DNA of 64,000 nucleotides from Fimbriimonadales bacterium. Lineage in GTDB: Bacteria > Armatimonadota > Fimbriimonadia > Fimbriimonadales > GBS-DC. The notes below the pieces were generated by a model. That model worked only from the letters and a program-made list of their open reading frames with translations, was not told the DNA's origin and did no database searches. Shown piece after piece: positions 42,115-61,144 of this stretch. Position 1 is the stretch's first letter. Each line of letters starts with the position of its first letter. Location of the stretch: the NCBI GenBank assembly GCA_025998675.1, contig AP024673.1:387520-451519 (forward strand), given 5' to 3'. The position numbers and the translations under genes were made by a program.

Positions 42115-45100
42115 ATGTCCTACACGCGAAAGGTTCTCTCCGTGTGTGAGTCGCACGCGCCGCTGGCAGCGTGGCTCGATCAGGCGCGGCATGGGGGGCG
42201 CGTGCTGCTGATTCTGGGAGAGCCGGGCACAGGGCGCAGTGCGACCCTGCGTGAACTGCAGCGTCTCGCGGCAATGCAGGAGATTGCCGTCGCAGAGACC
42301 TGGTGTCGCGGCGACGCCGCCGAACCGCCGCATTTGCCCCTGATGAGCCTGCTGGAGAGCCTCGCCTACGAATCGGGCGAGAAGGGCGCGCCCCTGCGCG
42401 ACGCGCTGGACAAGTGGAGCCAGAACCCGCAGGCGTGGCATCTGGCGTCGCGACTCATCTATCCCCTGCGCGAGCTGGCGCGCTGGCAGCCGGTGTTGCT
42501 GCTGATGGACGATTTTCACCGCGCGCACGAGAACCTGCAACGGATTGTGCTAAACTGGCTGGTGGCGCTGCGCCTGGAGCCGATTGGACTGGTGATGACC
42601 GTCGCCACGCCGCACCGCAGCCCCCTCCTGCGCGAGCTGGAGCAGGTGATTGGCGAGCGCGCGGTGGGCGAGGTGTGGAGCCTGCGCACGCTTACACGCG
42701 AGGAGACCGCCCAGCGCGTGCAGGCGATGCTGGACGGTCTGCCAGACGCGGACGCCCTCGCCAGCGCGCTGCACGACCTCACGGATGGCACCCCCCTGTT
42801 TCTGAGCGAGATACTCACCAGTCTGCAGGCGGATACGGCGCGCGCGTCGACCGATGTCGGCGCGCTCATCCCCCAGAGCCTGCGGGAGGGCGTGCTGCGC
42901 CGTTTCGAGGGCTTGCCGAAGTCCGCGCAGGACATCGGGCGCGCGCTCAGCCTGATGGACGACGCGCTCTACCCCGACGCGGTGCAGGCGATGCTGCGCC
43001 TCAGCGAGAGCGCGTTTGCGAAGGGGCTGGACGGGCTTGTGTCGCTGGGCTGGATCGAGGCGCAACCGAACGGGCAGTTGCGCTGGCGCAATCGGGTGCT
43101 GCGCGAGGTGGTCTACTCTACGATGGAGCCGCAGGAGCGGGCGCGCGGGCATGAGCGGCTGGCGGCTGCGCTGGAGCAGACGGGCGCGCCTGAGCTGATT
43201 GTGCTGTTGCAGCAGCGGTGGTGTAGCCCCTCCCCAGAACGGTTGCAACGGATGCACGCCGCCTATCTGCGCTTGCGCACGCAGTTGCCTCCGCGCACGC
43301 GACTGGAGCTTGTGGAGGCGTGTCTGGGCGCGGCGTCGCAGCTGGGCGATGGACGCGCGCGCGCCGCGTTTCTGTGCGAGCGCCCGTACCTGCTGTTCCA
43401 GTTGCAGGATGGGCTGCTGCACGCGCTGGACGCTTCGCAGCAGGCGCTGGCGGCGCTGGAGGCATACCCTGAAGCCGACCCTGACCGCGAGTTGTGGGTA
43501 CAGGTGAGTTGCGCCCGAGCGGGACAACTCACGCAGCTGGGGCGCATGCGTGAGGCGCAGGAGACGCTGGCGCCGCTCCTTGCCGACCCGTCGCTTCAGG
43601 AGTCGCAGCGGCTGATGGTGGAACTGAGCATGGCGTATATCTTCGCCTGTCAGGGCGATTTGCGCGCCGCGTATGTGATTCACCAGCGCGTGTGGGAGCG
43701 GCTGCGGGCGAATCAGGACTGGCTGATGCGCTGGGGAGGCGTGTTGCGCTACACCATGCAATACGCGCTGGCGTTTGGCGACCGCGCGCTGGCGCGCGCG
43801 GCGTTGCAGTGCGTCGGCGCGTGGGCGTCGCAGCCAGGGTTCCCCGAACGCTTTGAAATGCTCTACCATCTGATGAGCGCGGAGATGGCGTTTTATGAGG
43901 GGCACGGGGTGGAACAGCAGGCGCGCGCGCGTCTGGCGCTGGAGCGGGGCGAGGCGTCGGGCGACCCGACGGCGGCGCTGGAGGCATGGTTCCAGACGCT
44001 CCTGTATCGCCAGCCTGCGGAGGCGGCGCGCGTGGCGGACCGTGCGCTGGCGCTTGTACGGCGCGCGCTGGGGCAGGAACGTGAGGCGGAGTGGCTCACG
44101 CGCCGCGCACTCGCCTTACTGGAGGCGGGGCAGTACGCGCGGGCGATTGAAGCCGCCGACGAGGCGCGCCGCGCCGCACTCAAAATCGGCAGCCAGTGGC
44201 AGACCGCGAAGGCATGGTTGGTCGTTGCGCAGGCGCATCTGGCGAACAAGCGCACGACCGACGCCCATCACGCGCTCCAGCAAGTTGCGCCCATCGCCCG
44301 CACGCTGGACGCGCCTGAGCTACGCTGTGAACTGCACCTGACTCAGGCGACGCTGTTGCTTATGGAGGAGGCGCGCGCGGAAGCCCTGTCGGCGCTGGAG
44401 CAGGCGTGCGCCCTCGCGAACGAATGGGGGCACGCCCTCTATCGCGGCTTGGCGCTTGCGCTGACTGCCGATGCGACGGGCGACCCCGACGCCCGTGAAC
44501 GCGCGGACGCGCTGCTCACGGAATACGGCGCGCCGCTCCTGCGACGACTGGCGCAATCGCCCACGCCGAAACCCATTCCGAGTCGCGGCTGGGATATCTA
44601 CCTCCAGCTGCTGGGCGAAACGACCCTGCACTACCGCGCGGCGGCGATGACGCCCCGCATGTGGCACAGTCCGCGGGCGCGCGCCCTCTGCGTCTCGCTC
44701 GCGCTTCAGGAGGGCAGCCCCGTCGACTCGTTCACGCTGATGGAGTGGCACTTCCCGCACCTGGACGCCGACCGCGCGCGGGTGAACCTGCAGACGACGG
44801 TCTCGGCGGCGCGTCGCTCGTTGCGCAAGGCGTTCGGTGAGCCGGCAGGCGACTGGATTCACTACGAGAACGGCGTCTACCGCTGGGCGCCGCCATGCAC
44901 ATGGCGACTCGATGTGCAGGAGTTCGAGTCCATCGCCAGCGACGCGCTCAGCATCGCCCAGCCCGACCTGCAGCTCGCGCGGCTGGAGGAAGCCATCCGC
45001 CTCTATGCGGGCGATTTGCTGCCAGAGTTCGCCGACGAGCCGTGGTGTAGCGTCGCGCATCAGCGCATGCGCGTGCTGCTGGTCGAATGCCTGCTGGCGC

Positions 45101-45342
45101 GCGCGCAGCGCCTCTATGTGCGCGGCGACTATGCGGCGGCGTCGGCAGACTGCGAGCGCATCCTGCAAATAGACCCTGCCGACGAGAGCGCGCTATGCCT
45201 GCTCCTGCAAATCTACGCCGCGCAGGGACACCGAGCCGAGGCGCTGCGCCTGTTCGAACACACGCAGCAGCATGCTCGCGAACGACTCGGACAGATCCTC
45301 TCGCCGACCACCGTGGAGACCTTTCAGCGACTGTTTCACTGA
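42115..45342 (+). CDS. Large ATPase-TPR-BTAD transcriptional regulator
   Basis: 1075 residues, in the order NTPase, TPR, winged helix, BTAD. About 15-300 is a STAND/AAA-type ATPase: LGEPGTGRSATL (P-loop with Arg41 in place of Lys), VLLLMDDFHRAHENL (Walker B), and a sensor region. About 310-830 is helical and TPR-like (repeated A-L-x-L-A/E patterns). About 840-945 is a winged-helix segment (ARALCVSLALQEG...RVNLQTTVSAARRSLRKAF) and 950-1075 the BTAD domain (PDLQLARLEEAIRLYAGDLLPEF, LLVECLLARAQ, LCLLLQIYAAQG). In AfsR/SARP proteins wHTH-BTAD is N-terminal; here it is at the C-terminus, as in a MalT-like layout. It is followed by an 11-bp direct repeat and a sigma-like gene, its probable target. 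Confidence 0.82.
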   Translation: MSYTRKVLSVCESHAPLAAWLDQARHGGRVLLILGEPGTGRSATLRELQRLAAMQEIAVAETWCRGDAAEPPHLPLMSLLESLAYESGEKGAPLRDALDKWSQNPQAWHLASRLIYPLRELARWQPVLLLMDDFHRAHENLQRIVLNWLVALRLEPIGLVMTVATPHRSPLLRELEQVIGERAVGEVWSLRTLTREETAQRVQAMLDGLPDADALASALHDLTDGTPLFLSEILTSLQADTARASTDVGALIPQSLREGVLRRFEGLPKSAQDIGRALSLMDDALYPDAVQAMLRLSESAFAKGLDGLVSLGWIEAQPNGQLRWRNRVLREVVYSTMEPQERARGHERLAAALEQTGAPELIVLLQQRWCSPSPERLQRMHAAYLRLRTQLPPRTRLELVEACLGAASQLGDGRARAAFLCERPYLLFQLQDGLLHALDASQQALAALEAYPEADPDRELWVQVSCARAGQLTQLGRMREAQETLAPLLADPSLQESQRLMVELSMAYIFACQGDLRAAYVIHQRVWERLRANQDWLMRWGGVLRYTMQYALAFGDRALARAALQCVGAWASQPGFPERFEMLYHLMSAEMAFYEGHGVEQQARARLALERGEASGDPTAALEAWFQTLLYRQPAEAARVADRALALVRRALGQEREAEWLTRRALALLEAGQYARAIEAADEARRAALKIGSQWQTAKAWLVVAQAHLANKRTTDAHHALQQVAPIARTLDAPELRCELHLTQATLLLMEEARAEALSALEQACALANEWGHALYRGLALALTADATGDPDARERADALLTEYGAPLLRRLAQSPTPKPIPSRGWDIYLQLLGETTLHYRAAAMTPRMWHSPRARALCVSLALQEGSPVDSFTLMEWHFPHLDADRARVNLQTTVSAARRSLRKAFGEPAGDWIHYENGVYRWAPPCTWRLDVQEFESIASDALSIAQPDLQLARLEEAIRLYAGDLLPEFADEPWCSVAHQRMRVLLVECLLARAQRLYVRGDYAAASADCERILQIDPADESALCLLLQIYAAQGHRAEALRLFEHTQQHARERLGQILSPTTVETFQRLFH

Positions 45343-45348
45343 AACGCC

Positions 45349-45384
45349 GATTTTCAGTGGATTTTCAGTGCCGTAGCGTATCCT
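45349..45384 (+). promoter_or_regulatory. SARP-like operator: 11-bp direct repeat 8 bp upstream of a -10
   Basis: GATTTTCAGTG occurs twice in a row (45349-45359, 45360-45370), followed by 8 bases and TATCCT (45379-45384), a candidate -10; GAGGGG and the ATG at 45409 follow. SARP/BTAD activators bind direct repeats with 11-bp period, the last one 8 bp from the -10, so the geometry matches. An inverted copy (CACTGAAA) starts just before the BTAD stop. Confidence 0.6.
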
Positions 45385-45408
45385 GAGGCTACCTGTGAGG
45401 GGATACCT

Positions 45409-46014
45409 ATGGCAACTGAATGGGATGACACGGTCGAGCTGACGCTGTGGCTCCAGTTTGCGGAGCAGTGTGCGGAACGGTGGTTGAGCAAGCGCAACGC
45501 GCAGAGTGCGGCGCCCCTATGCTGGGACGACCTGCAGGATATTCTCTGCGAGGTGCGTGTGGCGGTGTTGCGCTTCAAGGTTCCTGAGACGGTGCTGGAC
45601 TGGCAGCCGCTGCTGGCGAAGTATGTGCAGCGGGTATGTGAGCGGGCGTATGCGCGTGCGCAGCGGGCGCGGCGAAAAAGCGCGTCGCTGGAGGCGCTGC
45701 CCGAAAGCCTGCACCCCTGTATCGAGACGCGCACGGAGCCGCTGGACGAAGCGTGGTTCCTGACGCGGGTGGCGTCTGTCCTGAAGCAGGCGCCCCTCCA
45801 CCACACGGCGGCGTTCGTACTGTCGCTGGAGGGCGAGCTGGCGCAGGCGTTGCAGGCGCACGGCGTCTTGCCCGACGCGCTCGCGCGATGGGCGCAGGAA
45901 GCGCCATTGACCGACAAAGCGATTGGCGCGCTACTGGGTCTGACGCCCCGCGCCGTCATTCGCGCCCGCCAGCACGCCCGCGAGAAGTTACGCCGCCAGC
46001 TGTGCGATTTATAG
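45409..46014 (+). CDS. Sigma-70-like (ECF-type) protein, probable target of the BTAD regulator
   Basis: 201 residues. The C-terminus (about 165-198) reads APLTDKAIGALLGLTPRAV then IRARQHAREKLRRQL, a helix-turn-helix as in sigma-70 region 4 (xTxxEIAxxLGLSxxxVxxRLxRAREKL). Upstream is helical, with Arg-rich and Glu-rich patches (RVCERAYARAQRARR), which could be a reduced region 2; the classical region-2 sequence is not clear. ATG 45409 has GAGGGG 6 bases upstream. The gene sits 66 bases after the regulator and its stop lies 3 bases from the convergent secA stop. A divergent sigma factor or DNA-binding protein are both possible. Confidence 0.6.
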   Translation: MATEWDDTVELTLWLQFAEQCAERWLSKRNAQSAAPLCWDDLQDILCEVRVAVLRFKVPETVLDWQPLLAKYVQRVCERAYARAQRARRKSASLEALPESLHPCIETRTEPLDEAWFLTRVASVLKQAPLHHTAAFVLSLEGELAQALQAHGVLPDALARWAQEAPLTDKAIGALLGLTPRAVIRARQHAREKLRRQLCDL

Positions 46015-59371: not shown

Positions 59372-61144
59372 ATGATGCGAACGATTAGCGGAGTGATAGC
59401 GGGTTTAACTTTGACGATGAGTGTCTATGGGCAGGCGTTCATCCATCAGAAGTTAGGTGAGAACTTTACAAGCGTTGGCACGGGTATTCTCACGGAGAGC
59501 GGGCTGCCGTTCTGGTCGGCAGTGGCTTCGGGCAGCAATCTGGACATTTTCCGAATCACGGGCAACGACAACTTCACCGCCTCGATTCTGGGCAGTAACC
59601 GTCTGGCGTATCCTGTGGCGTATCACGCGACTGCGGGACTGCTCTGGGAAGGGCAGGGCAGCGCGCTCTCGGGCAACACGGATGTGTTTGTGGAGACGAC
59701 GAATGTGAGCGCGTCCGTGCTCGGGTCTAACCGAATCGCGTTTGGCTTCGGGTTCACCAGCGCAGGGCAGCCGGTATGGTACGGCGCAGGCAGCGCGACC
59801 AGCAACAATCTGGACATCTTTCGCGGCGGCGCGAACCTGACGGCGTCCGTGCTGGGCAGCGGCTCGCGCGATGCGGTGCCGATGGCGCTGATGAACGACC
59901 GCCTGCTCTGGGACGGCTCTGGTCCCAACACGGGCGTCAATCGGGATGTGTTCCGCACAGATCTCAGCAGCTCGACCACCAGCAACATTTCGCAGTCGCC
60001 GCTGGGAAGCAACCGTTTTGCCGTCGCCGCTGCGCTCAATACGAACGGCGACGCGGTCTGGTACGGCAGCGGCTCGGCGACGGGCGACTACAGCGATGTG
60101 TTTTTCAACAGCACGAATGTGAGCTTCCCCGTGATTGGCGGGGGCAACATCAACAACCCGCGCGATGCGGTCGCGTTCGATGTGAGCGGCAACAACCTCA
60201 TCTGGCAGGGACGCAGCGCGACCACGAGCCAGTTCTTCGACTCGTTTGTGACCACCATCGGCGGCGGCACCGTTAACCTGAGCCAGTCGCCGCTGGGCAC
60301 GGGACGCGATAGCCAGCCGATTGATGTAGAAGGCGCGTCCGTACTGTGGAACGGTTTTGGCGACAGCGTGGGCAACTTCGATGTGTTTGTTACCCGACCG
60401 GGCACAACGCGCAACCTGAGCCAGCAGCGTTTCGGCGGCGGCAACACGCCCGGCGTGCGCGAGGGCTACGGGGTCGGCGTGTTCGCCAGCGGCAACGCTT
60501 TCTGGCTGGGCGCGCACAGCACCACGAACTCCAAGAGCCACCTGTTCCACTACAACTGGAACGCCAACAGCAGCACGAACCTCGTGCAGGAGTCGGTCAA
60601 TCGCGACGCGGACGCGGTCTACATCGCGCACAATAGCGCGGAGCAGGTGCTGTGGGCGGTTCCCACGGGCAGCGGCAGCTTCGAGGTCTACCTCTCAACG
60701 CCGAACATCGCGACCACCCTGCAGGGCACGGTGGCCATCGCGGGCTTCGCGGGCAACACGAACCAGATTGCGCTGACCATCCGCCAGTACGACCCGTACA
60801 CGGGCAATGTCGCCGCCACGCACACGGGCAACATGAACAGCGGGTTCACCTACTCGATTGCCGTGACGCCGGGCTTGTACGACGGGCTGCGCATCACCGC
60901 GCCGCGCTGTCTGGCGCGAAACATCCCCGGACTGCGCCGTCTGCTGGGCGCGACCACGCTTGACTTCAGCCTGACGCTCGGCGATGTGAACGGGGACAAC
61001 ATCATCGATGACGCCGACCTGCTGGAGGTTCTGTTCAACTTCGGCAATAGCAGCAGCGCGCCTGTCGACCTGAACGGCGACGGCATCGTGGACGACGCCG
61101 ATCTGCTGATAGTGTTGTTCAACTTCGGCGCGCAGGGAGACTGA
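59372..61144 (+). CDS. Secreted repeat protein with C-terminal dockerin-like domain
   Basis: About 590 residues (ATG 59372 or 59375, AAAGGAG upstream). Signal peptide (TISGVIAGLTLTMSVYGQ), then about eight repeats of some 45 residues of the type LWxGxGS-x-DVF-x-N-x-S-x-S-LGSNR-x-A, suggesting a beta-propeller, a carboxypeptidase-like beta domain (TVAIAGFAGNTNQIALTIRQY), and at the end two dockerin/EF-hand repeats (DVNGDNIIDDADL and DLNGDGIVDDADL) with Ca-binding D-x-N-x-D. No PEP-CTERM tail. It sits just before a sugar isomerase with only 3 bases between. Confidence 0.78.
   Translation: MMRTISGVIAGLTLTMSVYGQAFIHQKLGENFTSVGTGILTESGLPFWSAVASGSNLDIFRITGNDNFTASILGSNRLAYPVAYHATAGLLWEGQGSALSGNTDVFVETTNVSASVLGSNRIAFGFGFTSAGQPVWYGAGSATSNNLDIFRGGANLTASVLGSGSRDAVPMALMNDRLLWDGSGPNTGVNRDVFRTDLSSSTTSNISQSPLGSNRFAVAAALNTNGDAVWYGSGSATGDYSDVFFNSTNVSFPVIGGGNINNPRDAVAFDVSGNNLIWQGRSATTSQFFDSFVTTIGGGTVNLSQSPLGTGRDSQPIDVEGASVLWNGFGDSVGNFDVFVTRPGTTRNLSQQRFGGGNTPGVREGYGVGVFASGNAFWLGAHSTTNSKSHLFHYNWNANSSTNLVQESVNRDADAVYIAHNSAEQVLWAVPTGSGSFEVYLSTPNIATTLQGTVAIAGFAGNTNQIALTIRQYDPYTGNVAATHTGNMNSGFTYSIAVTPGLYDGLRITAPRCLARNIPGLRRLLGATTLDFSLTLGDVNGDNIIDDADLLEVLFNFGNSSSAPVDLNGDGIVDDADLLIVLFNFGAQGD

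Follow-up and report, generated by a model that had tools for sequence, protein, structure and literature searches.

In the window analyzed here, a 64,000-nucleotide stretch of the 2.99-Mb single-contig genome of a hot-spring Armatimonadota bacterium (genome G000 in what follows), a gene for a large regulator that ends in a SARP module stands upstream of two 11-bp direct repeats and of a gene predicted to encode an ECF sigma factor. We consider it very probable that this regulator is a SARP-type activator that acts through the repeats on the sigma factor gene and, elsewhere in the chromosome, on a gene for a secreted protein, and that the sigma factor would in turn direct a second tier of genes. 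A sequence-only reading of the same stretch had drawn attention to tandem copies of GATTTTCAGTG at 45349-45370, to the six-base gap before them, to the 8 bases that lead from them to TATCCT and to the ATG at 45409, and these coordinates are exact. The parts of the locus are as follows.

42115 to 45342, + strand: regulator gene, 1075 amino acids, stop codon TGA at 45340-45342
Between 45342 and 45349, + strand: AACGCC, the six bases from the regulator stop to the first repeat
45349 to 45370, + strand: predicted operator, two 11-bp direct repeats (45349-45359 and 45360-45370) with the conserved core TTTCAGTG
Between the second repeat and the -10 element, + strand: 8-base spacer CCGTAGCG
45379 to 45384, + strand: -10 element TATCCT, 8 bp 3' of the second repeat
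45397 to 45402, + strand: ribosome-binding site GAGGGG
45409 to 46014, + strand: predicted ECF-type sigma factor gene, ATG at 45409, 201 amino acids, with sigma2-like helices (4-92), a linker and sigma4-like helices (114-199)

We compared 18 genomes of the family, 113 genomes of the order, and 291 genomes of the phylum. Orthologues of the sigma factor gene were found in 11 genomes, all of one family and belonging to five genera, and regulator orthologues, whole or partial, in 13 genomes of the family; the named relatives of the sigma-like gene come from Armatimonadetes and Fimbriimonadales metagenome-assembled genomes and from HRbin15. Upstream of every one of the 11 sigma gene orthologues stands TTTCAG-N5-TTTCAG-N10-TANNNT, with the 11-bp period and the 8-bp spacing constant. 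In comparisons from genus to genus the 22-bp operator retains 73-95% identity, as against 17-31%, the background level, in the flank just upstream. In the alignment of these promoters, each repeat consists of a conserved 8-bp core and three looser bases. SARP promoters carry 11-bp direct repeats, the last of which lies 8 bp from the -10 element. The repeats take up two neighboring SARP protomers, whose contacts cover the first 8 bp of each repeat but not the last 3, and these protomers keep sigma region 4 positioned above themselves as a substitute for a -35 element (PMC10936776). As judged by site presence, all 11 sigma gene promoters have this geometry, and neither a TTGACA-like -35 element nor an ordinary TTGACA/TATAAT promoter was found at the sigma gene promoter. 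All sequence features needed for SARP-type activation are present and conserved at the locus. The sequence-only reading had asked whether repeat and spacing persist in related genomes, which they do in 11 of them, and had held that loss of the repeat where both genes are kept would speak against a cascade; we looked for such a loss and did not see it.

The repeat pair is far from chance. A tandem duplication without function could seem plausible from the window alone, in which the single 11-mer is not enriched (13 matches with at most two mismatches, compared with 9.7 in shuffled sequence), but 11 genomes from five genera have kept the pair, its flanks having fallen to background identity, and TTTCAG-N5-TTTCAG yields 22 matches at 18 sites in the 18 family genomes compared with a single match for the reversed control. 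Conservation refutes this explanation, to which we assign a negligible probability. The exact arrangement TTTTCAGTG-N2-TTTTCAGTG has a single match in the 2.99-Mb genome, and across the order the exact operator-plus--10 pattern has one occurrence in every one of the 11 family genomes and is also found in 2 of the 95 other genomes. We rejected these two matches (in G055 and G102) as operators since they look fortuitous, the one in G055 lying inside a 553-codon open frame.

The arrangement of the two genes in relatives tells to which of them the repeat belongs. Regulator and sigma gene are adjacent in six genomes (G000, G008, G002, G004, G006, and G016). In G007 and G014 each lies on a contig of its own, and unrelated sequence comes immediately 3' of the regulator; in G010 they lie on opposite strands with about 4.8 kb between them; and in G015 and G017 they are on separate contigs, with the regulator near a contig end. 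In all five genomes in which the two were not found side by side the repeat accompanies the sigma gene, and no repeat-like sequence was found 3' of the regulator stop in G007, G010, G014, or G015; the repeat is therefore a property of the sigma gene and not of the regulator's 3' end. Some promoters carry an extra half-site farther upstream, at 21 bp from the first repeat in G002, G004, G006, G007, and G010, and at 11 bp from it in G014 and G017. The same comparison bears on the idea that the repeat is part of a terminator or attenuator hairpin of the regulator, which the following structure could suggest.

45335 to 45361, + strand: hairpin over the first repeat, found in G000 and G008 only and hence not a conserved feature

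In G000 it comprises 10 pairs (TTCACTGAAA...TTTTCAGTGGA) with a T-rich stretch behind them, and its fold z-score is -2.26. Its left arm is missing in G002, G004, G006, G007, G010, and G014-G017, where the repeats persist, and no repeat lies behind the regulator where the genes are separated. As a general explanation the hairpin is refuted by this comparison and must be regarded as highly improbable, and in G000 and G008 it may additionally act as a terminator.

Further evidence for a SARP-type activator comes from the regulator itself, in which Pfam and structure confirm the domain order of the sequence-only reading (ATPase, TPR, winged helix, BTAD).

42163 to 42570, + strand: ATPase domain, residues 17-152, AAA_16/STAND-type, with Walker A reading GEPGTGRS (Arg in place of Lys) and with Walker B (MDD) present
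42571 to 44604, + strand: helical/TPR-like middle, residues 153-830, weak TPR matches around 634-764, the fastest-diverging part
44602 to 44907, + strand: winged-helix DNA-binding domain, residues 830-931, from the AlphaFold2 model and the Foldseek match to AfsR; Trans_reg_C is matched in two orthologues
44770 to 44838, + strand: recognition-helix stretch DRARVNLQTTVSAARRSLRKAFG, residues 886-908, overlapping the most invariant 25 residues (879-903)
44908 to 45330, + strand: BTAD, residues 932-1072, from Pfam

Pfam matches the regulator to BTAD at 3.5e-16 and to AAA_16 at 4.2e-11, and all 10 aligned orthologues match both. The fold searches that had been proposed for both proteins returned a C-terminal SARP module here and ECF sigma factors for the neighboring gene product. 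The AlphaFold2 model of residues 815-1075 (pLDDT 93.6) has as its best Protein Data Bank folds AfsR as captured in its RNA polymerase complex at the afsS promoter (8k60 and 8hvr; TM 0.73-0.77) and EmbR (2fez and 2ff4; TM to query 0.72-0.73), the two together giving a TM to query of 0.72-0.74 and the match spanning both winged helix and BTAD, and a sequence profile of the module reaches AfsR at 7e-9 and EmbR at 1.1e-8. With the OmpR-like winged helix directly before BTAD, the regulator also has the layout of the SARP family. Its C terminus is an AfsR/EmbR-type SARP module by fold and by sequence profile. The module is C-terminal, unlike the N-terminal placement that is usual in large members of the SARP family and that we found in the other BTAD regulators examined in these genomes. 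Outside the family, matches among the 291 phylum genomes span the SARP part alone, so that within this set the ATPase-TPR-SARP order is confined to the family.

The operator could be real and yet be bound by some other factor, for example another BTAD regulator, with the adjacency of this regulator merely historical. Other BTAD proteins do exist in G000 and its relatives, and regulator and sigma gene are non-adjacent in several genomes, but the pair is adjacent in six, and G011 and G013, which have neither this regulator nor the repeat, do have other BTAD regulators with an N-terminal SARP module, so that those regulators do not account for the repeat. Moreover, the recognition-helix stretch is 78-100% identical to that of G000 in orthologues whose overall identity is 33-80%, making it about as constant as the operator, a constancy that would match the unchanging site. 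We regard binding by another factor as improbable and retain the adjacent regulator as the likely activator.

The product of the downstream gene is predicted to be a divergent two-domain ECF sigma factor. Its AlphaFold2 model (pLDDT 86.8) shows a flexible linker between two helical domains, and nearly all of its top Protein Data Bank fold matches by Foldseek are sigma factors, mostly of the ECF type, with weak E-values (best 0.13). TIGR02937 matches 9 of the 11 orthologues, at best with 7.7e-10, the G000 protein scoring 23.4 bits, which is under the curated cut-off of 42.9, and a sequence profile of the protein reaches SigE of Mycobacterium tuberculosis at 7e-4. The presence of sigma2 and sigma4 without sigma3 is what defines the ECF type. 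The earlier description of the gene as a reduced sigma factor therefore stands as to sigma factor and falls as to reduced, since domains of both the sigma2 and the sigma4 type are present. A second, distant relative of the protein (28% identity) is encoded at G017:C46:85522-85977. ECF sigma genes are often autoregulated, and the repeat is present wherever the sigma gene is, which together could suggest that the sigma factor drives its own gene from the conserved block, with the TTTCAG hexamers serving as -35 element. The hexamers, however, lie at abnormal distances from the -10 element (10 bp for the second and 21 bp for the first), and a sigma factor would not need two or three repeats at an 11-bp period; such autoregulation is very unlikely.

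The predicted circuit has at least one further target. Among the 18 repeat-pair sites in the family, 11 stand at the sigma gene and 7 before a gene for a secreted protein, and no other gene type is represented. Sites of the latter type occur in six genomes of the genus; they comprise two or three repeats, the last of which is followed at a distance of about 8 bp by an ATTAAT/TTAATT-like element. In G000, three TTTCAG repeats (G000:C1:2053275-2053305) precede a gene for a 516-amino-acid secreted protein that is divergent from groES; the gene is divergent from groES/groEL also in G002 and G007 and has other neighbors in G008 and G016. The G000 protein has a signal-like start and, at its end, GDLNGDGSVDDADLLVVLFNFGAGR, which weakly matches Dockerin_1 (E 0.24), and the G008 protein matches DUF7901. 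A more distant homologue in G017 is without the repeat. At G016:C23:36684 what follows the repeat pair is no more than a C-terminal remnant of this gene, which looks as though the greater part of it had been lost by deletion. Two single-mismatch matches (G017:C8 and G017:C46) were rejected as operators, there being no suitable gene behind them. A dockerin-like signal, GDLNGDGxVDDADLLxVLFNFG, has 161 matches in G000, in a large protein family and often in tandem pairs; two of them lie at about 60968-61132 of the window.

Computation shows the parts, their conservation, the promoter geometry, the fold matches and the two types of target gene, and from these we infer binding, activation, a second tier, and gating, as follows. 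Two protomers of the regulator would sit side by side on the two 11-bp repeats, which replace the -35 element, and, by bringing in RNA polymerase that carries the housekeeping sigma factor, would turn on the adjacent gene for the ECF sigma factor from a TATCCT promoter that is weak on its own. Elsewhere in the chromosome this regulator would activate the secreted protein gene via two or three copies of the repeat, and the sigma factor would then direct further genes as a second tier. Gating of the SARP module in response to a signal is probably the role of the N-terminal nucleotide-binding and TPR parts. The two-gene cascade originally proposed for the locus is thus supported by conservation, geometry, and fold, and is too narrow in comprising just two genes.

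Several observations weigh against this scheme. The regulator is intact in G012, a draft that is 81% complete, and neither sigma gene nor repeat was found there; the regulator may have other targets, or contigs may be missing. In G009 the regulator is cut, and there is neither sigma gene nor repeat. The joint absence of regulator, sigma gene, and repeat from G001, G003, G005, G011, and G013, in contrast, speaks for the scheme, and the co-occurrence of regulator and repeat across the 18 genomes is significant (Fisher p = 0.0025) but not independent of phylogeny. The repeat is absent from the regulator's own promoter in the genomes examined, and we rejected autoregulation of the regulator because no repeat lies upstream of it there. 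Finally, the lysine of the Walker A motif at 42217-42240 of the window is replaced by arginine, the form GxxGxGR(S/T) being found in 9 of 10 aligned orthologues and GKT being retained in G015 and in the fragmentary G017. This replacement argues against ordinary ATP hydrolysis, which is therefore not to be assumed, and of the signal-sensing ATPase initially proposed, the nucleotide-binding domain (AAA_16) stands and the ATPase label is weakened. A TATACT/TACACT-like box lies a few bases before the regulator ATG in six orthologues (G002, G004, G007, G010, G014, and G016), which suggests that the regulator mRNA may be leaderless.

The closest known system is that of the antibiotic regulator AfsR and its target afsS in Streptomyces coelicolor (PMC10936776, PMC10972967, PMC2267785), in which a large regulator combining SARP, nucleotide-binding, and TPR parts adjoins its target gene, the target encodes a "sigma factor-like" protein, and two 11-bp direct repeats take the place of the -35 element at a promoter with a poor -35 and a non-consensus -10 element. 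The wiring is the same with rearranged parts, and regulator and sigma gene here probably form an on-switch cascade like AfsR-AfsS, although the locus does not belong to that pair: AfsR carries its SARP module N-terminally and the regulator here carries it C-terminally, AfsS is a 63-amino-acid protein with 12-amino-acid repeats (PMC2267785), unrelated to the 201-amino-acid two-domain ECF sigma factor predicted here, and our locus belongs to a different phylum, has no known antibiotic link, and has a secreted protein gene as its second target. EmbR of M. tuberculosis (2fez/2ff4) shares the SARP fold of winged helix and BTAD, but is an N-terminal SARP plus FHA without ATPase or TPR. The order of ATPase, TPR, and C-terminal DNA-binding domain is that of the MalT/LAL (large ATP-binding LuxR-type) regulators, from which the regulator differs in having a SARP module rather than a LuxR-type helix-turn-helix as its output domain; no LuxR helix-turn-helix family is among the family matches listed for it. 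The sigma factor resembles ECF (group 4) sigma factors in having sigma2 and sigma4 and no sigma3, and differs from them in that its sigma4 part contains an additional helical segment (about 142-162), in that a SARP-type operator precedes its gene, and in that no anti-sigma partner was noted beside it.

The regulator is thus of the SARP family by its module and new by its architecture. What we regard as new is that all repeat-pair matches in the family stand at two gene types, that among the phylum genomes searched the ATPase-TPR-SARP order is confined to the family, and that the Walker A lysine is replaced by arginine; in open-access full text we found no description of C-terminal SARP modules or of BTAD regulators in Armatimonadetes. 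More speculatively, and in our view less likely than not, the SARP-to-sigma-factor cascade might be old or recurrent and not a peculiarity of Streptomyces, the Armatimonadota version having a real ECF sigma factor in the position of AfsS and a SARP module relocated to the end of a protein of MalT-like layout, the nucleotide domain of which, with arginine in Walker A, has perhaps given up hydrolysis.

SARP regulators have been studied almost only in Actinobacteria, and comparative genomics of this locus gives an operator, a promoter geometry, and two target gene types for such a regulator in Armatimonadota. A recognizable sigma factor in the place of AfsS makes the mode of action of AfsS approachable outside Streptomyces, and the predicted sigma factor regulon is directly searchable.

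In searches of the G000 genome with two mismatches allowed, the many matches of the type TTTGCAGTGAATTTTCAGCG were rejected as operators, being copies of a dispersed palindromic repeat (TTTGCAGTGAATTTTCAGCG...GGAGTGCTGAAGCGGGAGCTTCAGCC...). This repeat has at least 15 copies in G000, often in intergenic positions.

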